Positions 29,455 through 43,468 of a DNA stretch of 44,041 nucleotides are shown here, in pieces. This stretch comes from Oscillibacter sp. GTDB taxonomy: Bacteria; Bacillota; Clostridia; Oscillospirales; Oscillospiraceae. The DNA is taken from positions 1 through 44,041 of the forward strand of contig JAAVHC010000024.1 in assembly GCA_014799925.1 (NCBI GenBank), read 5' to 3'. The first letter of the stretch is position 1; every line of letters begins with the position of its first letter. Made by a program: the position numbers and the translations under genes. The notes under the pieces are model-generated. The model was not told the DNA's origin. It was given only the letters and a program-made list of their open reading frames with translations, and did not search any database.

Positions 29455-30663
29455 TTAACGTATCCGGTAGTCATGCTTGACCGCGGCAATCTCCCGGCGC
29501 AGCTTTTCTCCCGCCAGGGCGTCCAGGCACTGACCGATGATCTGATTGGATACCAGGAAGCCCTCGGGAGTCAGCCGCCAGCGCCCGCCCCGGAGGACCG
29601 CGTGGCCGCTTTTCTCAAATTTCTCCAGGACGTTCTGGACGGGCCCGAAGGGCCGCCGGAACCGGTACTCAAACTCCTGCCGGGAGATGCCCTTCGTGAG
29701 GCGTAGGCCCAGCATGATGTACTCGGTGTCCCGGTCCCGGTCGGGAATCCGGTCATTCTCCGACAGGATGTCTCCCTCTGTCTCCACGCCCTCGCAGTAG
29801 GCCCTCAGGTCCCGGACGTAGGCGTACCGCACGCCGCCAAGATCCGAGTGGGCTCCCGGCCCGAAGCCCGCGTACTCTCCCAGGGTCCAGTATTTCAGAT
29901 TATGCCGGGACGCGAAGTCCGGCCTTGCGAAGTTGGAGATCTCATACTGCTGATACCCCAGCATCGCCAGCCGCTTCACCGCCCACAGGTACATGTCCGC
30001 CTGGAGGTCGTCGTCCGGCAGGTCCAGGGCGCTCTGCATGTCCCACAGCGGCGTGCCCTCCTCCACCTTCAGGCCGTAGCAGCTCATATGGTCCGGGAAG
30101 AGGGCGGTGGCTTTTTCCACGGTGTCCTGCCAGCTCTCCATAGTCTGGCCGGGGAGACCGTAGATCAGATCAAGGGACACGCTTTTTATTTTCGCTTTCC
30201 GGGCGGCGGCGACCGCATCCCCCGCCTGGGCGAAGGTATGGGGCCGTCCCAGGGCCTGCAGCTGAGCGTCGTCGGCGGACTGCACGCCCAGGGAAATCCG
30301 GTTGAACCCCGCCCGCCGCAGGGCGCGGAGGGTCCTCCAGTCTCCGGCGCTGTCCGGGTTTGCCTCCAGGGTAATCTCGGCCCGTTTCGCCAGACGATAG
30401 TGCTTCTGCACCGTTTTCAGGATATGCCGCAGCCGCTTTGCGCCCAGCCAGGAGGGCGTACCGCCGCCGAAGTACACGGTATCCACCTCATGGGCAGTGG
30501 TCTGCCGGGAAATTTCCGCCAGCTGGCGGCACAGGGCGGACACATAGCGGTCCATCTGGTCCTCCGCATTGGGCAGGGAGTAGAAGTCGCAGTAAACGCA
30601 CTTGCTCCTGCAAAAGGGGATATGGATGTAAAGCCCCAGGGGCTTGTACTCTTTCTTTTTCAC
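29455..30663 (-). CDS. hemW: Heme chaperone HemW-like radical SAM protein
   Basis: The 402-aa radical SAM protein binds a 4Fe-4S cluster through CRSKCVYCDF (Cys 18, 22, 25). Lack of the fourth Cys after the motif separates HemW from true HemN coproporphyrinogen dehydrogenases. YFGGGTPS, SLGVQSADDAQLQALGR and DLIYGLPGQT are standard, and a HemW C-terminal domain follows. Characterised HemW proteins bind and deliver heme. No other heme genes are in the window. GTG 30663 is preceded by GGAGG and GAGGTGAT sites. Confidence 0.93.
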   Translation of the reverse strand: MKKKEYKPLGLYIHIPFCRSKCVYCDFYSLPNAEDQMDRYVSALCRQLAEISRQTTAHEVDTVYFGGGTPSWLGAKRLRHILKTVQKHYRLAKRAEITLEANPDSAGDWRTLRALRRAGFNRISLGVQSADDAQLQALGRPHTFAQAGDAVAAARKAKIKSVSLDLIYGLPGQTMESWQDTVEKATALFPDHMSCYGLKVEEGTPLWDMQSALDLPDDDLQADMYLWAVKRLAMLGYQQYEISNFARPDFASRHNLKYWTLGEYAGFGPGAHSDLGGVRYAYVRDLRAYCEGVETEGDILSENDRIPDRDRDTEYIMLGLRLTKGISRQEFEYRFRRPFGPVQNVLEKFEKSGHAVLRGGRWRLTPEGFLVSNQIIGQCLDALAGEKLRREIAAVKHDYRIR

Positions 30664-33292: not shown

Positions 33293-33431
33293 TATAGTCG
33301 ACACAGTTGAGAACGAGTAAGTGTTGGGCTTCGCCCAAACCCACCAGGGCTTTGCCCCGTGGGCCGCGCTTTGCGCGGCTTAGGGCTGGGGCGGCCCTAA
33401 ACTTTACTGATTTTCAACTGCTTCGACTATA
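33293..33431. mobile_element. MITE-like element with 28-bp terminal inverted repeats
   Basis: 33293-33320 and the complement of 33404-33431 match at 23 of 28 positions, starting TATAGTCGA. Between them are four hairpins with short TTT/TTC or G-rich loops: GTTGGGC/GCCCAAAC-like, CCCAC-AGGGC/GCCC-GTGGG, GCCGCGC/GCGCGGC and AGGGC/GCCCT. No ORF is present. TA at both outer ends would fit an IS630/Tc1-type TA target. Confidence 0.75.
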
Positions 33432-33446
33432 TATTGTGGGAAGTAA

Positions 33447-33472
33447 GAAAAAGGCAGGCCGCGGCCTGCCTT
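33447..33472 (-). terminator. Terminator of the VWA/MoxR operon
   Basis: A 22-bp perfect palindrome (AAGGCAGGCCG and complement, 33451-33472) is followed on the reverse strand by TTTTTC, about 60 bp after the VWA stop codon. Confidence 0.88.
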
Positions 33473-33531
33473 CCCGTCCTTACAGTATTTCGGTTCCGAA
33501 GAAATTGCCGCGGCGGACAGAGCCGCAAAAG

Positions 33532-34686
33532 CTATCCCCCTTTTTCCCCGGCAAGCTCCTCCAGCCCCTGCCCCTTCAGGGCCCGCTCCAGCAGCTCCGG
33601 AAGCCTCTCCGGAGCGCAGGCAAAACAGGGGATCCCCATAGACGCGATCCGCTGGGCGGTCTGGGCGTCATAGCAGGGTTTTCCGCCGTCGGCAATCGCC
33701 AGCAGCACCACTACCGTCACGCCGGAGTCCTTCATCTCCTCCAGCCGCCTGAGAAGCGCCGCCCGGTTGCCGCCTTCTTCCAGGTCGGAAATCAGAAAGA
33801 ACAGCGTCTTTGCCGGCGCTTCCACCAGGTCCTGACAATAGGCGATGGACTTGGCAATATCCGTCCCGCCGCCCATCTGGAAACCAAAGAGCAGATCGAC
33901 CGGGTCCTCGCACAAGGGCGTCAGATCCATGATCTTCGTATCGAAGGCCACCACGCTGGTCCGCACGGCGGACATGGACGCCAGAATACACGCCATAACG
34001 GAGGAATACAGGATCGACTGCCCCATGGACCCGCTCTGGTCAATATCCAGGATCACATGCCAGCGGTTGACCCGGCTGGAGCGGTCGAAAAACCAGACCC
34101 GCTCCGGGATGACCGTCTTCAACTCCGCGTTGTAATTGCGCAGATTACGCCGGATGGTATAGGGGAAGTCGATGGCCGAAGCCGACGGCAGCGGCGAATG
34201 GGCCCGCCGGTTCAGAGCGGCCGTCACCGCCCGCCGCACGTCGCTCTCCAGCATCTGGTTGATGGTCTCCACGATCTTCCGGATGAACTTCCGGGCGGAC
34301 TCCTTGGACTTCTTGGGGATCTGGTCCTTGAGCATCAGCAGCGTGGACGCCATATTCAGGTCGGGCTCCAGGTCCTCCAGGAGCTCAGGCTCCAGAAGGA
34401 GCTGCCTGAGCCCCTTGCGCTCGATGGCGTCGTTCTGGACCACGGCCACGATCTCCGGGTCAAAAAGACTGCGCAAATCTCCCAGCCACTTGGCGATATG
34501 GGGCGAAGATGGGCCCTTTCCCGCCCCGCTTCCGCCGAAGCTCTCCCCAGGGCCGCCATAAATCGCCGCCAGGGCGCTGTCCATAAGAAGCTCCTCCTGA
34601 GAGAGGGTCCCGCCCCCCATACCAGCAAAGGATTCCTGGGTCTCCGCGCCCAGAATGAGCCGCCAGCGGGCCATTTGTTCTGTCAT
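33532..34686 (-). CDS. VWA domain protein of a MoxR-type operon (YehP-like)
   Basis: The 384-aa protein has a helical N-terminal half (about 1-200) and a C-terminal von Willebrand A domain. The metal-ion-dependent adhesion site is complete: DxSxS in DIDQSGSMG (Asp216, Ser218, Ser220), Thr275 in GGGTDI and Asp301 in LISDLEEGG. MoxR ATPases typically work with a VWA partner that recruits substrates or metal-dependent ligands. ATG 34686 has GGAGGG 5 nt upstream and lies 10 nt after the DUF5682 stop. It is the last gene of the six-gene unit. The arrangement resembles E. coli YehP, a protein of unknown function. Cytosolic. Confidence 0.9.
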   Translation of the reverse strand: MTEQMARWRLILGAETQESFAGMGGGTLSQEELLMDSALAAIYGGPGESFGGSGAGKGPSSPHIAKWLGDLRSLFDPEIVAVVQNDAIERKGLRQLLLEPELLEDLEPDLNMASTLLMLKDQIPKKSKESARKFIRKIVETINQMLESDVRRAVTAALNRRAHSPLPSASAIDFPYTIRRNLRNYNAELKTVIPERVWFFDRSSRVNRWHVILDIDQSGSMGQSILYSSVMACILASMSAVRTSVVAFDTKIMDLTPLCEDPVDLLFGFQMGGGTDIAKSIAYCQDLVEAPAKTLFFLISDLEEGGNRAALLRRLEEMKDSGVTVVVLLAIADGGKPCYDAQTAQRIASMGIPCFACAPERLPELLERALKGQGLEELAGEKGG

Positions 34687-34696
34687 GGTTCCCTCC

Positions 34697-37012
34697 TCAG
34701 ATATCGTCAAAATCAAACTCATCCAGGCCGCTGAGGACCTCCTGCTCAGCTTCCGTCAGGTCGTTCATCAGGACCTCCGCCGCCTGCCGGGCATTGACGC
34801 CCCAGATTTCCCCCAGATTCTCCGCGATGTCGTTCTTCTCCCCGGGCGAGAATTCCGCGAAGGCCCTCCGCAGGAATACCAGCGCCCGCCGGAAGTTCTC
34901 CTCATCCAGGCCCCGCAAATATTCATCCAGATGCCGCCAGAGGCTCAGCCGGGTAATCAAAGCGTAACGGTTCTTCCCGGCAAGCCCCTCGAACCATCCG
35001 GCCCCCAGATCGGCAGGCACTCCGGGAGACAAACGCCGGGAGACCTCCCGGGCCAGCAGCTCCTCGTCCACCGCGCCCCGCTCCAGCAGCACCGCCATGG
35101 CAAATCCCGAGCACAGGGTATTCAGATCGTCCCGGTCGGACACCCGCTCCAGCAGCTTCAGCCACATATCCTGGTCCAGGAAATCGTGGTTCAGCTGTAA
35201 GGCGTTCAGCCTGTCGATGGCCTGCGTGACCGCGGGCGCGGCCTTGGCATCGCAGATACAGGCGTCCTCCAGGGTCAGGCAGGAGCGCAGGTACAGCTGC
35301 TCCAGCAGCGGCACCACCGGCGCGGCGTCAAACCGCCGCAGGCCGCCGTACCGCACCACCAGGCTCAGCTGCTCCGCCGTGGCGGCGACCTCCGCCAGTG
35401 CCGCCGCGTCCACGCTCAGGCCCTGGAGCACCGACAGGGCGTGCTTCGCCGCCTCCGGCATCCCGCACAGGAACGCGTCGGAGAAAATCGCCGCCGCCTG
35501 GGCGATGGACGTGCTGGCCTCAGCCCGTTCCCTGAGGGCAAACGCCGCCGCCCCCTCAATGGTGTCCCCCAGCAGAGAGGATTCCACAATTTCAATTTCC
35601 GCCTCCGGGGTCCACCGCAGCTCCCAGTACTCCCCCCAGTTGGCCCCCGTCTGCCGGGAGGGCAGAAGCCTGGCAAACTGGATATTCAGCACCCGCAGCC
35701 GGTGGAGAAAGAAGGAACGGCGCAGATCTCCCAGGGCGGCGTCTCTGCTTTTCACATCCAGCTTCTCCCGCAGGTCCAGATCCAGCCGCTGGAGCTCCGG
35801 GGCGCGGAACTTCTCCAGGCGCAGAACCTTGAGCTGGCGGTAGAAGTCCTCCTGTACGGAGGTGCGGCTGACCCCCTCCGGCAGGAGGCCGATTTTTTTA
35901 CCGATTTCCGTATCCGCCGCCGCCAGGGAAAGCTCCGAAAACTGCCCATGGCCCATGGTCGTGACCGCCGCGTCCCGCAGGTCCTGGAGCGTGGGATAGC
36001 GGCTCCCCCGCATGGTACGCAGGACCTCCGCAAGCCGCACCGCCTCGATCACCTCGGCAGAGGAGACCAGATTCCCGGCCTTGCGGTGGGCGGCGGCCAA
36101 ACGGGTGAGATAAAGATAGGCTGTCTCTCCGATCCCTTTCCCGTTCATGGCGTCCCACAGAAGCTCAAAGTAACCCGGGGCCCGGTTCCCCGCGCCGTAG
36201 CCCGACCGGGAGGACAGCCGGAAATAGGAGTAGGGCATCAGCGTGGCGGTGCTGTCCAGCCGGGGGAGAGATTTCATCTCGTCATCGCTCATAGGCTGGC
36301 AGGTCTCCAGCCCCCGGACGTGGAAAGCCCCGCAGACGCAGAAGATTTTTTCCTCCGGGATGCCGCCGTTGACGGCGTCCCGGATATTCCGTTTCATATA
36401 GGCTTCCCGGACCAGATTTTCCGCCGTCCGGGCAATGTTGTCCCGCGCCGCCTCCCGAAGCTGAGCGCCGAACGCGTTACAGGCCGCCTGGTACTCTCCG
36501 GAGTCTTCCAGCTGCTCGAAGGTCCTTTCCCAGAAGGTGTCGTGATCTTCACCCGTGAGCGTCTCCAAACGATGGTAGATGGATTCCGTGGTGGCGGAAG
36601 GTTCCTCCGGTTCTTCCAGTTCTTCCGGCGCTTCCTCCTCGTCCTCCATCGCCTCCATTTCCGCGATGGCCCGCTCCTCCGCCGCGGCCTGGAGCGCCAG
36701 GAACACCGACGACGGCAAATCCATGAACCGGCACTCCGCCCCATGCTCATGCGCCCATAAAATCGCCTGGATTTCCGGGGAGTAAGCGGCAAGCGGATAG
36801 AGAATCGTCCGCACCGGCGGGGTCCTGGTATAGGCCATGATGGCGGCGGGGAACCGCGTCTCCGGATGGCAGAGCCATTGCATCTGCTCATTGAGATCAT
36901 CGGGCCCCTCCACCAGTACCAACCGGGGCCGCGCCTCATCCAAAGCCTGCCGCAGGTGGTACGCCGCCCCCGGCGAGAGGTGGCGTATCCCAAACAATAC
37001 CGGTCCGCCCAT
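34697..37012 (-). CDS. DUF5682 family protein (YehM-like)
   Basis: The 771-aa soluble protein has the DUF5682 pattern. It starts GGPVLFGIRHLSPGAAYHLR, then PRLVLVEGPDDL at about residue 30, and a charged DEEEE stretch at about 120-140. CVCGAFHVRGLETC follows near residue 235, and a long helical C-terminal part fills the rest. The spaced GxRH, VEGP and GAFHVRG motifs resemble the TraB/TIKI/ChaN-type putative hydrolase fold. That is my inference. ATG 37012 overlaps the MoxR stop by one base (TGATG). It is the fifth gene of the operon and probably the effector or client-handling subunit. Confidence 0.85.
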   Translation of the reverse strand: MGGPVLFGIRHLSPGAAYHLRQALDEARPRLVLVEGPDDLNEQMQWLCHPETRFPAAIMAYTRTPPVRTILYPLAAYSPEIQAILWAHEHGAECRFMDLPSSVFLALQAAAEERAIAEMEAMEDEEEAPEELEEPEEPSATTESIYHRLETLTGEDHDTFWERTFEQLEDSGEYQAACNAFGAQLREAARDNIARTAENLVREAYMKRNIRDAVNGGIPEEKIFCVCGAFHVRGLETCQPMSDDEMKSLPRLDSTATLMPYSYFRLSSRSGYGAGNRAPGYFELLWDAMNGKGIGETAYLYLTRLAAAHRKAGNLVSSAEVIEAVRLAEVLRTMRGSRYPTLQDLRDAAVTTMGHGQFSELSLAAADTEIGKKIGLLPEGVSRTSVQEDFYRQLKVLRLEKFRAPELQRLDLDLREKLDVKSRDAALGDLRRSFFLHRLRVLNIQFARLLPSRQTGANWGEYWELRWTPEAEIEIVESSLLGDTIEGAAAFALRERAEASTSIAQAAAIFSDAFLCGMPEAAKHALSVLQGLSVDAAALAEVAATAEQLSLVVRYGGLRRFDAAPVVPLLEQLYLRSCLTLEDACICDAKAAPAVTQAIDRLNALQLNHDFLDQDMWLKLLERVSDRDDLNTLCSGFAMAVLLERGAVDEELLAREVSRRLSPGVPADLGAGWFEGLAGKNRYALITRLSLWRHLDEYLRGLDEENFRRALVFLRRAFAEFSPGEKNDIAENLGEIWGVNARQAAEVLMNDLTEAEQEVLSGLDEFDFDDI

Positions 37013-38103
37013 CAGCCGTTCAGCTCCCGGCAGGCCCGGTACAGGGGAAGCCAGGCGCTGCCCCGCTTCTTCATCACGTTCTCCAGGTATTCCTTCCAGG
37101 TGAGCTTGTCCTTGTCCTCATCCTTGACCACCGCGCCCTGAAGGGCGGCCGCCAGGTCCTCGTCAGAGACCCGCCCGTCCCCGAAGCTCCCCGCCAGGGC
37201 CATGGAATTGGCCAGCAGGGAGATGGCCTCGGCGGCGGAGAGCACGCCGGAGGTGGCTTTCAGCTTCTGCTTCCCGTCCAGAGTGGCCCCGGAGCGCAGC
37301 TCCCGGAAGATGGTGACGACCTTCTCCACCACATCCCCGTCGGGCTGGCGGGCGTTCAGGTCCAGCCCCGCGGAGAGCTGGGCCACGCGGGTGGAGACGA
37401 TCTCCATTTCGGTCGCCATATCCGACGGCGTGGGCAGGACCACGATGTTGAACCGGCGCTTGAGGGCGGCGGACATGTCGTTAACGCCCTTGTCCCGGGT
37501 GTTGGCGGTCGCGATGACGGAAAATCCCTTCTGGGCCGGGACCTCCAGCCCCAATTCCGGGACGCTTAAGCGCTTCTCGGAGAGAATGGAGATCAGCGCG
37601 TCCTGGACCTCGCTGGCGCACCGGGAAATCTCCTCGACGCGGGCAATGGACCCGGTCTCCATGGCGCGGTAGACCGGGCTCTTCACCATGGCCTCCGGGC
37701 AGGGACCCCTGGCGATGAGCATGGCGTAATTCCAGGAGTAGCGGATCTGCTCCTCCGTGGTGCCCGCCGTGCCCTGGACGACTTTGGTGGAATCACCGTT
37801 GACAGCGGCGGACAGGTGCTCGCTGAGCCAGGATTTCGCCGTGCCGGGCTCGCCGATGAGAAGAAGGGCGCGGTCCGTCACCAGGGTGGCGATGGCGATT
37901 TCCACCAGGCGGCGGCTGCCCATGTATTTCGGCGTGATTTCCACGCCCCTGACGGTCTCATTGCCGGTCAGGTAGGTCAGGACCGACTTCGGGGACATCC
38001 GCCAGCCGGTGGGGACAGGGTCGGCCTCGGCGGAAATGAGTGCGTCCAGCTCCCTCTGGTAAAGCTCCTCCGCAGGGAGGCGCTGAACATTTTTCTCAGG
38101 CAT
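37012..38103 (-). CDS. MoxR-type AAA+ ATPase (YehL-like)
   Basis: The 363-aa AAA+ ATPase has Walker A GEPGTAKS (84-91), a Walker B-like IARVEEI (153-159), a sensor 1 region IATANTRD (197-204) and an Arg-finger candidate ALKRRFN. Sequence order and the adjacent VWA gene place it in the MoxR family, which forms hexameric rings that remodel or activate proteins. The neighbours DUF5682, VWA and SWIM match the E. coli YehL group. ATG 38103 follows AGGAGGAAT, 16 nt after the HEAT gene. Cytosolic. Confidence 0.93.
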   Translation of the reverse strand: MPEKNVQRLPAEELYQRELDALISAEADPVPTGWRMSPKSVLTYLTGNETVRGVEITPKYMGSRRLVEIAIATLVTDRALLLIGEPGTAKSWLSEHLSAAVNGDSTKVVQGTAGTTEEQIRYSWNYAMLIARGPCPEAMVKSPVYRAMETGSIARVEEISRCASEVQDALISILSEKRLSVPELGLEVPAQKGFSVIATANTRDKGVNDMSAALKRRFNIVVLPTPSDMATEMEIVSTRVAQLSAGLDLNARQPDGDVVEKVVTIFRELRSGATLDGKQKLKATSGVLSAAEAISLLANSMALAGSFGDGRVSDEDLAAALQGAVVKDEDKDKLTWKEYLENVMKKRGSAWLPLYRACRELNG

Positions 38104-38119
38104 ATGGTCATTCCTCCTA

Positions 38120-40018
38120 TTATTTCAGACTATCGATCACCTGCTGTATCCGCGCCTCGGACCAGGTGACGAAGACTTTGAATCTTCTGGCACGGACCTC
38201 CTCCCGGAACCACTCCAGCTCGGCGATCTTCTCGCCGTTGGTCATGCGGCCGCCGACGTACTCTCTGTACCAGCGCTCCAGGTCCAGAGGCGAAATCCGC
38301 TCTCCGGAGGCCCGTGTAAGCATGGGGATCATCCCCTTCCAGTCCGCCCACTCCCGGTAACGCAGGGATTCCACCATATAATCCACGCTGACGCCCGGCT
38401 GGGGCTGTATCTTCTCCAGATTCTCCCGGAAGGCCGCGGCACAGCCGCTGTCCGCCGGGTCCAGGGCGCACAGCGCGATTTCCAGCGGCGCGGCGGTGTA
38501 GACCCAGGTATTGTTCTTGTACCCGCTGGCCCGCCAGAGGGGAACGTCTCCCCCGATGGGCACCAGGGGCAGACTCATCAGCGCCGCCGCCCAGCGGCTG
38601 TCCAGGAAGGGCCTGCCCCGCACACGCCCCGTGAGCAGTCCCAAACCGAAGAGGATGCCCAGCCGCTGGTTCCGGGTGCAGGCGTCCGGCTCCAGCATGG
38701 GAGCGAACCGCTCCCACACCGCCGCCGGGGACTCCGTCAGCCCTGCCGCCAGCACCAGCGGTTCATAATAGAGCCAGCCGTACTTTTCCGCCAGCTCCTC
38801 CGCCAGAGCCCTGAGCGCCGGGGACGGATTCCGCCAGATGGACGCCGACAGCAGTCCCGCAGGCAGGGGCCACTTTCCGTCCCTGCCCAGGAAGGGGGCC
38901 AGTTGGGTGACATTCCGCCGGTTCTGGAATGCGGACAAATTGGACTTCCACCGGGAGCGCTCCCCCGCGTACCACGCCGCCAGTTCCCGGTACAGCTCCA
39001 GCATGGCGGGGCTGTCCTTTCCCAGGCAGGCCTGAAAAAGGGCTTCCAGCCCCTGCCAGAGGACGGTTCCCCAGTTGGGGGCGTCCTTGGCGAAAATCTT
39101 GTCCAGCTGCATTCCCATCAGATCGGCGATCAGATCGCCGTGGAGCGGGTTGTCCGAACCGCTCAAGGCCTGGAGCACGGTCTCCGGCTTCTTTTTTGCC
39201 AGCTCCCGGGTATAGGCCGCCGCCGCCGGGCCGGTCAGGCAGACCATCGCCTGGATGGCTTTCTCCTGGCACTCGCCTTTTTCACTCTTACAGAACGTCT
39301 TGATGCGCTCAAAGTTCTCCTCGCTGTGCCGCAGGGTGTAGATCAGCGGGGCGCGGACGTCCCTGCCGGCGTCCGTCAGCTGGGCGAGGAACCATTCCGT
39401 CTCCCTCCCGCCGGCGATGGCGTCGATGACCTCCACCCGCCGGGCCATGGCCCGCTTGCCCCTGGGATCGAAATTTTCTTTCAGCAGCGGCACCACAGAA
39501 GGGCCCAGCTGCTTGAGGATACCGGCGTTCTGGTCCGCCATGCCGCCGGAACTGTCCCCCAGGCCCGCAATGAGGGCGGGCAGGACCCGGAAGTCACGGA
39601 AAAACTCCGGATGGTTCTCCCAGGCCAGGCGCACAACGGCTTCCCGCCGCCCGCCGGTCCCGGTCAGAGCGTTAAGCAGAGGCGAGAGCTGGCCGTGAGA
39701 GAGGGACAGGCAGGTCCCGCACCCAGCGGGCAGGGGAATCAGCTCACCCTCCATGCCGCTTTTGCCCTGGGTGTAAGCCACCGCGTCCACCAGGGCCAGC
39801 GTATCCAGCAGGAGTCCCGCCCGTTCCTTTGGAGGAGCGGCCAGGAGCTGTTCCAGCCCGGCGGAAATCCGCCCAAACACGGGACTGGCGGCGGCCAGAG
39901 GCTTCATGGCCTCCGCCGCCCGCCGGAGCCGGAAATCCTCGTCCAGCAGACCCACCCCGGCGATGGCCGCCGCCTCCAGGCGCTCCTTGACGTCGTATAA
40001 AGGCTGCAAGCTGCTCAT
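38120..40018 (-). CDS. HEAT-repeat-like protein B, tandem paralogue
   Basis: This 632-aa all-helical protein has repeated FxxxLxxxLxxx and LIAGLGD-type units, suggesting HEAT or ARM repeats. Its first ~210 residues (MSSLQPLYDVKERLEAAA start; FGRISAGLEQLLA; HPEFFRDFRVLPALIAGLGD; NFDPRGKRAMARRVEVIDAI) are strongly similar to the protein encoded just upstream; the rest is clearly diverged. ATG 40018 overlaps the upstream TGA (ATGA). No catalytic motif is seen. It probably serves as a scaffold in the MoxR/VWA system. Confidence 0.85.
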   Translation of the reverse strand: MSSLQPLYDVKERLEAAAIAGVGLLDEDFRLRRAAEAMKPLAAASPVFGRISAGLEQLLAAPPKERAGLLLDTLALVDAVAYTQGKSGMEGELIPLPAGCGTCLSLSHGQLSPLLNALTGTGGRREAVVRLAWENHPEFFRDFRVLPALIAGLGDSSGGMADQNAGILKQLGPSVVPLLKENFDPRGKRAMARRVEVIDAIAGGRETEWFLAQLTDAGRDVRAPLIYTLRHSEENFERIKTFCKSEKGECQEKAIQAMVCLTGPAAAAYTRELAKKKPETVLQALSGSDNPLHGDLIADLMGMQLDKIFAKDAPNWGTVLWQGLEALFQACLGKDSPAMLELYRELAAWYAGERSRWKSNLSAFQNRRNVTQLAPFLGRDGKWPLPAGLLSASIWRNPSPALRALAEELAEKYGWLYYEPLVLAAGLTESPAAVWERFAPMLEPDACTRNQRLGILFGLGLLTGRVRGRPFLDSRWAAALMSLPLVPIGGDVPLWRASGYKNNTWVYTAAPLEIALCALDPADSGCAAAFRENLEKIQPQPGVSVDYMVESLRYREWADWKGMIPMLTRASGERISPLDLERWYREYVGGRMTNGEKIAELEWFREEVRARRFKVFVTWSEARIQQVIDSLK

Positions 40019-41934
40019 TTTCCCATCCCCCACCACACGTTCCATTCCGGGTAGGGCTTCCCGGCTTTCAGAAGCTCGATGGTGTAGGGGATGGCTCTTT
40101 CCGCTGTCTCCTGGGCGCCCTTGTAGATTCCCTTGGAGGCCAGAGCCTCCTCCAGAAGCCCAATGACCTCCTCGGGCGGCAGAGCCTGGGCGGCTTTTTC
40201 CATCAGCTCCCACAGGACAGACAGACGGTTGGCTTTGGGGTTTTTCACCATGGCGTCTCCCAATACGCCCCTGGGACTGCCGCCCAGCTGGAACAGCCAG
40301 CGGCTGTAGGTATACGCCAGCCCGGTCTCCTGGATCCTCTTCCGGAGGTAGGGGATCAGCAGCCGGCGTGTTTCGGCCTCCGACGGGTCAACCAGCTTCA
40401 TCAGGTCCAGGTCAAACTTGTTCACATTCTCCCAATAATAGGAGAACGGAGGAACGCCTCTCCCAGGCACATCTGTATAAACCGCTTGCGTAAGCCGCTC
40501 GATCCATCTCCGGTCCAGGGGCTCGGCGGTGGGCTGGCCGCCGTAGACGACATACCGCCCCTGCTCCTGGTTCCACCACACATCCCCCAGCGCACGAAGC
40601 AGGACGTTGTTGAGCGTTCGTTTGCGGTCGGCGTCCAGAAGGGGCTTTTTCGTCAGGACGCAGGGAGCAAATTTCTTATAGACCTCCGCCGCGGGACGGG
40701 CGAGCAGGGCGGCCAGGAAGCTGATATGCAGATACCGCGTCATACCGGGCCGCCGGTCCCACAGCTCCAGGCAGAAGTCCCGCAAAGGACCGGGGCCGGA
40801 GGTACGCAGGCTGTCCCGCAGGCTGTCCGTCAGCCTCACCCCAGCGAAAATGGAGTTGCCCTTTTCATTGGTCAGTACGTCGAAGGCCTCCATATGGCTG
40901 TCAGCCCAGCGCCAGAGCTCCAGCATCGGCGCGGACGCTTTTTTCCCGATGGCCTGGCACCAGTGGGAAAGCTCCAGCTGTTCCTCCTCAGAAACAGGGC
41001 CCCCCTTTGCCAGCATCCCTTCCAGCTGCTCCCGCAGGCCGGTGGCCAGCAGCGCCGCGGCCCACTCTGTATCCGTATCCCGCAGGAATCTTACGGAACC
41101 GCTGTTTTTTTTCAGCTCTGCCGTCCAGAATTCCCGCACCGCGTCTCCGTCCTGCCTGGCCAGCGCTTGCAGGGCAGCTTCCCGGCTGCCGCTTCGCTCG
41201 GTCTTGATCAGGTCCAGCAGAAGGGCGGTATTGTCCGGGGCGTCGCCCAGGGCCAGGATGACCGCCACACGCACATCCTTCCTTGCCTCCGGCAGGACCT
41301 CCCGGAGCCAGGGAGAGGCTGCCTCGCCCTCGATGGCGGCGATAACCTCCGCCCGGCGGGCCATGGCCCGGTTCCCGGCGGGATCAAAGTCCTGTTTCAG
41401 CAGGGGCAGGGCGGCAGGACCCACCCCCTTCAATATTTTAGCGTTCAGATCGGCGATCTCGCCGTAGCCGTCCCCTAATCCGGCCACTACCGCCGGCATC
41501 ACCCGGAAATCCCTGAAGAACTCGGGGTGGTCCTCCCAGGCGGACTGGATGACCTCCATCCGTCCGCCGCCGGTGGTGGTCAGGGCGGTCAGCAGGGGCT
41601 GGATCTGCCCGTGGGAAATCTGTATGTACGTCCCGCCGCCGGTGGGCAGAGGGGTGATCTCGCCCTCCATCCCGCTCCTGCCCTGGGTATAGGCCACCGC
41701 GTCCACCAGGGCCAGCGTGTCCAGCAGAAGTCCGGCCCGGTCCGGCCCGGGAGCGGAGAGGAGCCTGTCCAGTCCGGCGGAAATCTTCCCGAAGACCGGA
41801 CTGGCGGCGGCCAGGGGCTTCATGGCCTCCGCCGCCCGCTGGAGACGGAAATCCTCGCTCAGCAGGCCCGTGCCCGCAACGGCTGCGGCCTCCAGGCGCT
41901 CTTTTACATCATAAAGAGGCTGTAAACTGCTCAT
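40015..41934 (-). CDS. HEAT-repeat-like protein A, tandem paralogue
   Basis: The 639-aa helical-repeat protein is the first of a tandem pair, nearly identical to protein B at its start (MSSLQPLYDVKERLEAAA). Units such as FRVMPAVVAGLGDGYGEIAD, LPEARKDVRVAVILALGD and REAALQALARQDGDAVREF are typical HEAT. The C-terminal half has its own features (YWENVNKFDLDLMKLVDPSE). ATG 41934 lies 14 nt after the SWIM stop, with GAGGGGGCGGC upstream. In E. coli a HEAT/WGR protein (MolR/YehI) sits near the yehL set, so this may be its functional counterpart (inference). Confidence 0.85.
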   Translation of the reverse strand: MSSLQPLYDVKERLEAAAVAGTGLLSEDFRLQRAAEAMKPLAAASPVFGKISAGLDRLLSAPGPDRAGLLLDTLALVDAVAYTQGRSGMEGEITPLPTGGGTYIQISHGQIQPLLTALTTTGGGRMEVIQSAWEDHPEFFRDFRVMPAVVAGLGDGYGEIADLNAKILKGVGPAALPLLKQDFDPAGNRAMARRAEVIAAIEGEAASPWLREVLPEARKDVRVAVILALGDAPDNTALLLDLIKTERSGSREAALQALARQDGDAVREFWTAELKKNSGSVRFLRDTDTEWAAALLATGLREQLEGMLAKGGPVSEEEQLELSHWCQAIGKKASAPMLELWRWADSHMEAFDVLTNEKGNSIFAGVRLTDSLRDSLRTSGPGPLRDFCLELWDRRPGMTRYLHISFLAALLARPAAEVYKKFAPCVLTKKPLLDADRKRTLNNVLLRALGDVWWNQEQGRYVVYGGQPTAEPLDRRWIERLTQAVYTDVPGRGVPPFSYYWENVNKFDLDLMKLVDPSEAETRRLLIPYLRKRIQETGLAYTYSRWLFQLGGSPRGVLGDAMVKNPKANRLSVLWELMEKAAQALPPEEVIGLLEEALASKGIYKGAQETAERAIPYTIELLKAGKPYPEWNVWWGMGK

Positions 41935-41948
41935 TTTGCCGCCCCCTC

Positions 41949-43391
41949 TCAATATAGCAGCCGGATGACCTGCTCCGGCGTCACTACGCTGTAGGGATGG
42001 AGGCAGATGGTTTTATCCGCCTCATCGTAGAACATTAAGCCGAAGAGGGCGCTGCCCGCCGGGATGGCCGCCGGCAGCATGGCGAGCCTCGCCGTGGAGG
42101 CGTGGTCCGCTCCATCCTCCCGGCGGTCCCGCAGAACGACCCGCCCGCCCTTGGGGTCCTCCAGGACGAAGGTCTCCCCTATCGTGCCGATCTGCCCAAT
42201 GGGGACAAGCACGGCCATATATTTCGGCAGCAGCGTATTCTTGATCTGCCCCTTCACCAGCTTCACCGCAGCCGCCAGGTCCGGCTGGGCCAGAGTGGGC
42301 AGAGCGGCCTGCTCTTCCGGCGTAACGGGCCGGGTGGAGGCGCTGTCCCAGCGGATGCGCCGGTTCCCCTCTCCAGGGTAGGTACACAGCACCGGCACCT
42401 CCAGCAGGTCAAAGCGGCTGTCGTCGCCTTTGACATACTTGAGGGCCTTGGCGGGACGGAGATTCAACGTCTGGTCGATCTGTCCGGTGGCAGTATCCAG
42501 CCACCAGCCCCGCTCGCAGAACTCTTTTTTCGCTTCGTCGTAGGTCACATCGAAGGAAAGCTGGACCAGCTTCGCGTTCTCCCGGAACGCGCCGATGGCC
42601 TGCAGGTCCTCCAGCTTCCAAACGCCGCCCAGCGCCTCGAAAAGGACGGTATCCTCGGCGGAACAGGACCCTTCCTCCAGCTTCTGCTGGAGAAAGACCC
42701 GGGCCTTCTTGATGGTGGAGTGGAGGGCGATGAGCACCCGCAGAGCCTCGCTGTAGGCCGCCTGGGCCTGAGCGGGGTTCTTCTGCACCGTGCGGACAGT
42801 CAGAGCGATGCGGGAAAAGGCGGTCTGGAGCCCGGTGAGGTAGCTGCTGCCCAGGTCCTTGGCCAGCTTGTCGTAGCTCTGGGCGGAAGAACCCGACAGG
42901 GTCCCCACTCCGGCGGTCAACAGCTCAGAGACCATTTTCTCCGCCATGTCCAGCCCCGCCAGCTGCTTATCCAGCTTTTTCTTCCGGGCGGCGGCGTTGG
43001 GCTTCTTGGGTTTTGCGGGAGTCGAGGCGGCAGACTCTTTTTTCGCGGCTCTGGCGGCCTGCCTGGCCCGCTTGTCCGCGATGTCCTGGGGAATGTCCGC
43101 CGTCTCGAAGGGCTTTTGCCCCAATATCTCAAAGAGAAGTCCCAGGGCGTGCTTGCACGGGAACTGCCTGCTGGGACAGGAGCAGCGGCAGACGGGAGCC
43201 TCCGGCTCGGTGAAGTCGGCGGAGACCCGGTAGGGATTTTTTCCGCTCCCGGCACACTCAGCCCAGTAGAGTGTTTGATCGGCTGTTTTGCGGTGAGCGG
43301 AAAAACTGCCCTTTTTTGAGAGTTTCCGCCCATTCTCCGCAGCGGCAGGATTCGGAGCCAGAAGGAGGATGGACTGCTCGGTCAGAGACAT
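41949..43391 (-). CDS. SWIM zinc-finger protein (YehQ-like), first gene of the MoxR operon
   Basis: The 480-aa protein has a SWIM motif CxCx(n)CxH: VCRCSCPSRQFPCKHALGLLF, with Cys70, Cys72, Cys79 and His81. SWIM fingers bind zinc and mediate DNA or protein contacts. A Lys/Ala-rich linker (about 105-140), a helical central part and a C-terminal domain (about 260-480) follow. I chose ATG 43391 with GAAGG about 9 nt upstream; the frame extends further only through the promoter. A promoter at 43440-43468 starts the six-gene unit. The gene set matches E. coli yehL-yehM-yehP-yehQ in content. Confidence 0.9.
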   Translation of the reverse strand: MSLTEQSILLLAPNPAAAENGRKLSKKGSFSAHRKTADQTLYWAECAGSGKNPYRVSADFTEPEAPVCRCSCPSRQFPCKHALGLLFEILGQKPFETADIPQDIADKRARQAARAAKKESAASTPAKPKKPNAAARKKKLDKQLAGLDMAEKMVSELLTAGVGTLSGSSAQSYDKLAKDLGSSYLTGLQTAFSRIALTVRTVQKNPAQAQAAYSEALRVLIALHSTIKKARVFLQQKLEEGSCSAEDTVLFEALGGVWKLEDLQAIGAFRENAKLVQLSFDVTYDEAKKEFCERGWWLDTATGQIDQTLNLRPAKALKYVKGDDSRFDLLEVPVLCTYPGEGNRRIRWDSASTRPVTPEEQAALPTLAQPDLAAAVKLVKGQIKNTLLPKYMAVLVPIGQIGTIGETFVLEDPKGGRVVLRDRREDGADHASTARLAMLPAAIPAGSALFGLMFYDEADKTICLHPYSVVTPEQVIRLLY

Positions 43392-43439: not shown

Positions 43440-43468
43440 ATTATACCATATCCCGCCTTGCAGGGCAA
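43440..43468 (-). promoter_or_regulatory. Promoter of the SWIM-HEAT-MoxR-VWA operon
   Basis: Reverse strand TTGCCC (43468-43463), 17 nt, TATAAT (43445-43440), 49 bp upstream of the start codon. CTTGC-AGG-GCAAG (43457-43469) is a small inverted repeat overlapping the -35 box. Confidence 0.78.

Follow-up and report, generated by a model that had tools for sequence, protein, structure and literature searches.

What task unites a SWIM zinc-finger protein, two HEAT-repeat proteins, a MoxR-type AAA+ ATPase, a DUF5682 protein and a VWA_CoxE protein that are encoded side by side in an Oscillibacter genome, and are they the parts of one machine? We examined this operon in contig JAAVHC010000024.1 (assembly GCA_014799925.1), referred to here as the window, which is the entire contig of 44,041 nucleotides (44 kb) from a genome of 2.97 Mb that is 97.9% complete and has a single DUF5682 gene. 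All six open reading frames (ORFs) were found on the minus strand with the coordinates and gaps that the original prediction had given (14, -4, 16, -1 and 10 nt). No study of the function of the operon was found among the open-licence PMC papers that the searches brought up, including PMC10907252, PMC10910872, PMC8939145 and PMC9334617, which were available in part. We report that the constant components of this operon are accompanied by a HEAT subunit that joins a conserved head to a hypervariable tail, and we propose, tentatively, that the tail selects the targets of the machine.

To collect relatives, a species-genome collection was searched with an alignment of MoxR; this gave more than 590 matches, from which the 80 top-scoring loci were retained (loci and genomes carry L and G numbers below), and the sample therefore leans towards the window's kind. 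Taking MoxR as the anchor and restricting the counts to loci whose contig extends far enough, DUF5682 lies downstream of MoxR in 71/74 relatives, VWA is present after MoxR in 61/65, SWIM lies ahead of MoxR in 60/65 and a HEAT or DUF5691 protein is present in 62/65. All five gene types occur together in 55 of 59 relatives, which bears out the view of one machine inherited together. Some exceptions are slight: L042 is excluded by the distance rule alone, its three HEAT genes moving SWIM beyond the limit, and in L063 the VWA gene lies farther away, behind inserted genes. Others are more reduced, with only MoxR and DUF5682 in L040, a MoxR-DUF5682-VWA triad without SWIM and HEAT in L083 and L100, MoxR alone in L087, only SWIM-DUF5691-MoxR in L110, and DUF5691-MoxR followed by other genes in L114. 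The ORF lists keep the longest ORF, and some genes are hidden beneath longer antisense ORFs, as are the tails of L161 and L166. The insert of L063 (3499-6839) holds an RtcB RNA ligase gene, an ankyrin-like gene (by eye) and an unknown gene between DUF5682 and VWA.

The co-conservation had been claimed for all six genes, and this part has to be revised, as the second HEAT gene is absent from most loci. Among 81 loci, the window counted, 50 have one HEAT copy, the window, L038 and L065 have two and L042 has three (4/81 with more than one), while 27, which include cut contigs and DUF5691 types, have none by the HEAT profile; L180, outside this count, also has two. The machine thus counts five parts, and the sixth gene of the window operon is a local duplicate of HEAT that is not conserved with the rest. 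Gene fusions join DUF5682 to VWA in L032, L035 and L083 (in L083 both in one frame) and SWIM to DUF5691 in L022. The fusions point to two contacting pairs and suggest a division into an engine, made of MoxR-VWA-DUF5682, and a recognition part, made of SWIM and the HEAT-type protein.

The two HEAT proteins of the window, HEAT-a and HEAT-b, align over 443 positions with 49% identity, which is concentrated in the head. Pairs were counted over 65 of the 73 matched ORFs (500-800 aa, profile score of at least 200). In pairs from different loci whose MoxR proteins are at least 88% identical (n=87), the heads have a mean identity of 68% and the tails of 42%, and in 35/87 such close pairs the tails are less than 30% identical. 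Control proteins cut at 35/60% of their length gave gaps of 3 (SWIM), -7 (DUF5682) and -6 (VWA), and no value below 30% was seen in 60 SWIM, 52 DUF5682 and 46 VWA pairs. Within a close group consisting of the window, L038, L039, L041 and L042 (nine HEATs, 36 pairs), the heads have a mean identity of 73.5% (66-82), the sequence from residue 201 onward has a mean of 35.8% (21-70), and identity drops at residues 210-270; the corresponding means are 77% for SWIM, 89% for MoxR, 76% for DUF5682 and 85% for VWA (5, 7, 7 and 5 loci). A tail less identical than the head was also found in 16/16 of the closest Paenibacillaceae pairs listed. The original prediction had described these proteins as HEAT scaffolds and so missed their main feature.

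The tails themselves fall into groups. Group A comprises HEAT-a, L038_2, L042_3, L182 and L176 at 50-68% identity, with L039 at 41-45%; group B comprises L038_1 and L042_2 at 66%, with L042_1 at 39-45%; and a loose group C holds L041, L179, L183 and the second copy of L180 at 28-36%. The HEAT-b tail, taken from aa 261, is at most 24% identical to each of 16 other operon tails compared. The order of the groups varies, group A lying beside SWIM in the window and beside MoxR in L038 and L042. Copies 1 and 2 of L042 are 81-97% identical in nucleotides over most of the head, with one patch at 56%, fall to 45-69% past residue 225 and return to 87% in the last 13 residues, and in L029 and L064 the tail is closer than the head (85 vs 66%). 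Recent gene conversion between HEAT-a and HEAT-b was considered and rejected: the fourfold sites of their heads are 58% alike, inside the 55-65% that each shows to other genomes, so conversion in the window pair is not recent. By the same measure only copies 1 and 2 of L042 stand out, at 90%, and the L038 pair, at 79%, is close to the best inter-genome value of 78%.

Rates of change were compared with the same-genus locus L176, to which MoxR is 95% identical, VWA 89%, SWIM 87%, DUF5682 86%, the HEAT-a head 80% and its tail 52%. Nonsynonymous (dN) and synonymous (dS) divergence were 0.40 and 0.89 for the tail; the head and the remaining proteins gave 0.03-0.14 and 0.34-0.74. The resulting dN/dS was 0.45 for the tail, 0.09-0.18 for the other proteins and the head, and 0.67 for aa 201-260; against L182 the values were 0.37 for the tail, 0.08-0.25 for the others and 0.25 for aa 201-260.

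Relatives of the tail exist outside the operon. A search of 394 genomes of the order with the HEAT-b tail gave 7 matches, its own genome included. Five further genomes encode proteins of ~380 aa that consist of the tail alone and are 28-33% identical to the HEAT-b tail (over ~200 residues in the full proteins), those of L162-L165 matching the HEAT profile with E values of 1e-30 to 1e-33; the sixth genome, G065, has a HEAT with a head-like N-terminus (by eye). Four of the six other genomes are without DUF5682 and two have it. The stand-alone tails (L161-L165, in G341, G293, G353, G331 and G076) lie within runs of small immunity-like genes. Ten proteins scanned in such runs comprised the tail itself, Imm-NTF2, SUKH-3, DKNYY, ankyrin, DUF6138 and DUF6892, one each, together with one that has a weak LRR match only and two that are matchless. 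Immunity-gene arrays of polymorphic toxins are a known kind of locus, and the runs look like such arrays; they may be large polyimmunity loci.

The DUF5682 protein had been proposed as sensing or acting on a target, and its conserved residues narrow this to a candidate TIKI-like hydrolase. H11, E35, E80, R202 and H231 are invariant, the window included, in a set of 18 diverse sequences (18/18) and in an alignment (A4) of the window protein with 50 of 72 candidates (51/51), as are E203, M206 and G228. Five of these residues lie in the motifs GIRH (H11), VEGP (E35), SPE (E80), RExxM (R202) and GAFH (H231), and YehM of E. coli retains the TIKI-like motifs. The TIKI endopeptidase RRSP uses E3900, H3902, E3930 and H4030 with a conserved basic R4001, according to the available part of PMC6254334; its spacing from the Arg to the second His, 29 residues, is that of the window DUF5682, with 27 in YehM. 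Two GxxH motifs with a Glu between them and a conserved basic residue are thus present (H11, E35, R202, H231), and GxxH, Glu, Arg and a second GxxH follow in the same order as in the TIKI superfamily (ChaN, TraB/PrgY, erythromycin esterase, RRSP). DUF5682 differs from this superfamily in a stretch between the motifs that is longer than in RRSP, a large C-terminal region and an ATPase partner. A Pfam scan of the 51 DUF5682 proteins gave ChaN (5/51, best E 1.8e-4) and TraB/PrgY (5/51, best E 0.012) as the most frequent families after DUF5682 itself, and Pfam labels ChaN as Tiki superfamily; such scans by alignment show 25 families, of 35 for DUF5682, 32 for SWIM and 33 for HEAT. We consider kinship of DUF5682 to the TIKI superfamily probable, and the protein is likely a candidate hydrolase of the TIKI/ChaN/TraB type that would serve as the acting part of the machine.

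We tentatively favour a single machine, driven by ATP, that hydrolyses or remodels targets chosen by the HEAT tail. MoxR would form an AAA+ ring with the VWA_CoxE protein as adaptor, as the homologous pairs CoxD-CoxE, NorQ-NorD and RavA-ViaA suggest. DUF5682 would be held against the VWA protein as a TIKI-superfamily-like hydrolase, probably a peptidase, and SWIM and HEAT would provide the recognition side. The conserved HEAT head would dock on the machine and the hypervariable tail, which we infer to be the target-recognition part, would bind the target, presumably a foreign or delivered protein; the ATPase-VWA pair would then remodel the complex and DUF5682 would cut or trap the target. If the tail does select targets, the operon would be a constant engine with a diversifying reader. 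Operons with the MoxR-DUF5682-VWA core span Escherichia, Paenibacillus, Chitinophaga, Deinococcus and Rhizobium. A further step, which we regard as unlikely, would make HEAT an exchangeable, antigen-receptor-like part whose tails, akin to the stand-alone proteins of toxin-immunity arrays, recognise delivered toxins or invader proteins for destruction and whose tandem copies widen the repertoire; a common ATPase and TIKI-hydrolase machine would then be served by exchangeable tails. With a candidate active site in DUF5682 and a HEAT tail that stands out clearly as the presumed recognition part, the question is open to experiment.

Several results weigh against a target-selecting hydrolase. Positive selection on the tail was considered and rejected, as dN/dS is below 1 in all segments compared, so that we claim fast change and not positive selection. 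A nearest-neighbour test gave no sign of tail swapping: the neighbours by head and by tail agree in 34/65 cases, no lower than the halves of SWIM (34/60), DUF5682 (36/59) and VWA (23/55). Of the 2His/2Glu set of RRSP, DUF5682 has no counterpart to the first Glu, which stands two residues ahead of the first His in the available part of PMC6254334, position 9 being Ile in the window; E80 is invariant but placed elsewhere than the first Glu described there. The ChaN and TraB matches are weak, concern a minority of members and are absent from the window protein itself, and ten more distant members scanned singly gave one TraB match, at 0.12. An hhalign comparison of DUF5682 with TraB (13 segments, one probably in a wrong frame) gave a probability of 2%, the aligned stretch being R..M...GxxH. 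Against solved structures the DUF5682 profile matched only two designed proteins; the SWIM profile gave nothing useful there and the MoxR profile gave midasin. No defence-island enrichment was found around the operon when 136 flank proteins were compared with 136 control proteins. Finally, most MoxR-VWA pairs whose function is known serve in assembly or maturation, as far as the available part of PMC7159879 describes them.

In an alternative reading, DUF5682 or a host enzyme encoded elsewhere would receive a metal from MoxR and VWA_CoxE or be remodelled by them, in the manner of NorQD or CoxDE, with SWIM and HEAT as client adaptors and DUF5682 as client and not effector. NorQD, CoxDE and RavA-ViaA share with the window a MoxR-group AAA+ protein and a VWA partner of the VWA_CoxE family, although the available parts of PMC7159879 and PMC13036017 describe no DUF5682, SWIM or HEAT partner of these pairs; PMC13036017 reports metal insertion by NorQ-NorD via linker twisting. 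The window VWA belongs to the CoxE family and the conserved His/Glu set of DUF5682 could hold a metal, but DUF5682 accompanies MoxR no less regularly than VWA does (71/74 vs 61/65) and can be fused to VWA, both of which are more like a working part. A yehM mutation is reported for copper-evolved E. coli (PMC12409786), but the available part of that report tests no yehM mutation on its own. A single fixed client would also leave the hypervariable HEAT tails without a reason, and we consider maturation a somewhat improbable explanation of the operon.

A role in anti-phage defence, in the manner of the MoxR-vWA conflict systems, is, in our judgement, unlikely too. Predicted conflict systems are built around MoxR-vWA pairs, and the vWA-MoxR ternary systems (Kaur et al. 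2020, PMC7159879, available in part) combine such a pair with further partners, as does the window; the bpMoxR model matches the window MoxR just above its cut-off (27.5 vs 27 bits, aa 55-110). A diversifying subunit, a patchy distribution and nesting across phyla would all fit a defence system. However, the third components and effectors of the conflict systems (VMAP, iSTAND, beta-propeller and known effector domains) were not found by Pfam at E 1 in the six proteins, and SWIM, YehL and EreA are not mentioned among the ternary systems in the available part of PMC7159879. PADLOC matches within the operon are weak (E 0.0013 and 0.0059). Flanks were represented by 136 ORFs drawn at random from the 608 that lie within 5 kb and encode 130 aa or more, and controls by 136 of the 210 ORFs found in 15 regions, whose 14 genomes are only partly shared with the flanks. 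At 1e-10 the flank proteins match 7 PADLOC families (mad3 in 4 proteins, mad2 in 2, the others in 1 each) and the control proteins 49 (25 of them listed), a comparison that counts families, not proteins, many control families being models of one protein. DUF5682 was found in a single phage record of 50,697, and none was found to carry HEAT-a.

Plain HEAT scaffolds with a C-terminal part drifting under relaxed constraint, in a housekeeping chaperone whose host target is fixed, are quite improbable: solenoid repeats are tolerant of sequence change, the tail dN/dS is ~0.4 and not above 1 and head and tail neighbours agree as often as in controls, but close-group heads stay uniformly at 60-82% (L178 apart) whereas tail groups cross loci at 16-68%, the L042 copies 1 and 2 are alike in the head and break at ~residue 225, the L029 and L064 tails are more alike than their heads, and L038, L042, L065, L180 and the window retain two or three copies that differ in their tails.

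The operon was also compared with the E. coli locus yehI-yehK-yehL-yehM-yehP-yehQ, as it had been called YehLMPQ-like. This holds for three of its proteins: the window MoxR is 40% identical to YehL (BLAST E 7e-84), a named MoxR subfamily in the available part of PMC3893208, DUF5682 is 26% identical to YehM (2e-32) and VWA 33% to YehP (3e-71). MoxR, DUF5682 and VWA are ordered as in the window and a SWIM protein is part of the operon, but YehQ lies downstream of VWA in E. coli and the window SWIM upstream. An identity of the window SWIM with YehQ is not supported, its profile giving no match to YehQ at E 10, and the HEAT profiles matched no protein of the E. coli yeh region. DUF4132 (YehI) was not found by Pfam among the six proteins of the operon, upstream of which the window extends for only ~0.6 kb, and HEAT-a matches YehI at E 0.05 over 32 residues.

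Three subtypes can be distinguished. Subtype I, that of the window, is SWIM-HEAT(1-3)-MoxR-DUF5682-VWA and occurs in Clostridia, Paenibacillaceae and Bacillaceae, and with a short HEAT in Treponema; in the variants L052 and Myroides (L073) HEAT precedes SWIM. Subtype II, SWIM-DUF5691-MoxR-DUF5682-VWA, is found in Deinococcus, Bacteroidota, Rhizobium and others and has the same gene order as the window and four families in common with it, the SWIM match in Rhizobium being divided over two ORFs. Its slot is filled by DUF5691, a family to which the window HEATs have no Pfam match. In Bacteroidota this slot is likewise the most variable part, the C half of DUF5691 being less identical than the N half in 20/20 of the pairs listed. 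Three Chitinophagaceae of this subtype (L102, L108, L112) have a ~975 aa gene behind VWA; the one that was scanned with Pfam, from L102, is DUF4132. An equation of HEAT with DUF5691 was rejected: no match is among the 25/33 Pfam families shown for 34 HEATs (alignment A6, both window HEATs and 32 of the candidates listed), and the hhalign link is weak, over HEAT repeats (E 0.008, 5% probability). Subtype III is the E. coli type, MoxR-DUF5682-VWA-YehQ, with a DUF4132 protein upstream in E. coli. L181, L186 and L187, from the window's own family, belong to it and are closer kin of the E. coli type than the window is, with MoxR 48-49% identical to YehL, VWA 41-46% to YehP, and YehQ relatives at E 2e-7 to 2e-6. 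The window operon is a distinct HEAT-bearing subtype of the YehL-type operons. Genome G450 of the window's family has both a HEAT-type (I) and a YehLMPQ-type (III) operon (L180 and L181).

DUF5682 is patchy in its distribution, being present in 15/245 genomes of the order, 13/250 of the family (12 above cut-off), and 10/398 of the phylum (8 above cut-off); among the 4 relatives listed from the window's genus, 2 have it. Oscillospiraceae are among the nearest named relatives of the window by DUF5682. A quick DUF5682 tree places Bacteroidota at two places, Treponema among Oscillospiraceae, and Myroides, Tannerella and Dysgonomonadaceae within a Bacillota clade. This fits inter-phylum transfer of the operon, the placement in a tree with several metagenome bins among its rows being no proof. 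DUF5682 matches were found in 35 of 72,556 plasmid records, and very large replicons account for several of the 15 listed; no operon DNA was found in the plasmid records; a DNA search for the operon in E. coli genomes gave no match. The one phage record (L018, MT835988.1) is an unverified 14 kb 'Bacteriophage sp.' scaffold with MoxR-DUF5682-VWA that is possibly phage or bacterial DNA.

Table 1. Genes, protein parts and flanking signals of the operon in the window.
Feature	Position	Strand	Evidence
SWIM zinc-finger protein, 480 aa	41949..43391	-	Pfam SWIM 1.2e-6
HEAT-a, 639 aa; conserved head ~aa 1-200, variable tail, tail type A	40015..41934	-	HEAT_2
HEAT-a variable tail, aa 261-639	40018..41154	-	52% identity to same-genus L176; dN 0.40
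HEAT-b, 632 aa; tandem paralogue of HEAT-a	38120..40018	-	head aa 1-200 74% identical, tail 19-23%
HEAT-b tail, aa 241-632	38123..39298	-	resembles stand-alone proteins of apparent immunity arrays
MoxR-type AAA+ ATPase, 363 aa	37012..38103	-	Pfam AAA_5 1e-38; 40% identity to E. coli YehL
DUF5682 protein, 771 aa; relative of E. coli YehM	34697..37012	-	Pfam DUF5682 7e-154
DUF5682 N-terminal part, aa 1-235, TIKI-like motif set	36308..37012	-	GIRH, VEGP, SPE, RExxM, GAFH
VWA_CoxE protein, 384 aa, MIDAS residues present	33532..34686	-	Pfam VWA_CoxE 9e-46
Terminator: GC-rich hairpin, then T run	33447..33472	-	folding
Promoter-like site TTGCCC-17-TATAAT, TG ahead of second hexamer	43440..43468	-	positional support only

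The individual proteins and signals largely agree with the original prediction. We found C70/C72/C79/H81 in SWIM, GEPGTAKS in MoxR and DQSGS, GGTD and SDL in VWA, which we take to be the intact SWIM, Walker A and MIDAS motifs that it named. The SWIM residues are invariant in 35/35 sequences (alignment A5, the window and 34 of 51 candidates). Walker B usually has DE, with an Asp where the window MoxR has a Glu; residues 155-159 at this place read R-V-E-E-I, a caveat to the word intact, and both Glu are invariant in 13/13 sequences, window included, YehL having RFEEI. The HEAT_2 match is under the curated Pfam cut-off for both HEATs (1.1e-4 and 0.07). A terminator near 33447 is upheld by folding, the stretch 33430-33485 reaching -24.6 kcal/mol (z -3.7, equalled by 0/200 shuffles), and the hairpin is absent from the list of a consensus terminator scan. 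A promoter at 43440 is less secure: the site exists, but the number of promoter-like sites (1 found vs 1.3 in shuffles) is no higher than by chance, so that position is its sole support.

Recurrent neighbours of the operon were sought and set aside, the nine clusters present in at least 4 loci being generic by eye (histidine kinases, ABC transporters, reductases and the like). In L034 (10857-11774, G045) a gene matching the Pfam APH(6)/hydroxyurea kinases (1.2e-9) lies between DUF5682 and VWA. L177 (G588, same genus) appears to be a degraded operon with short or split MoxR, HEAT and DUF5682 frames, an assembly fault being possible. A few genes downstream of the operon, the window encodes a radical SAM protein with a HemN C-terminal domain (29455-30663, minus strand).

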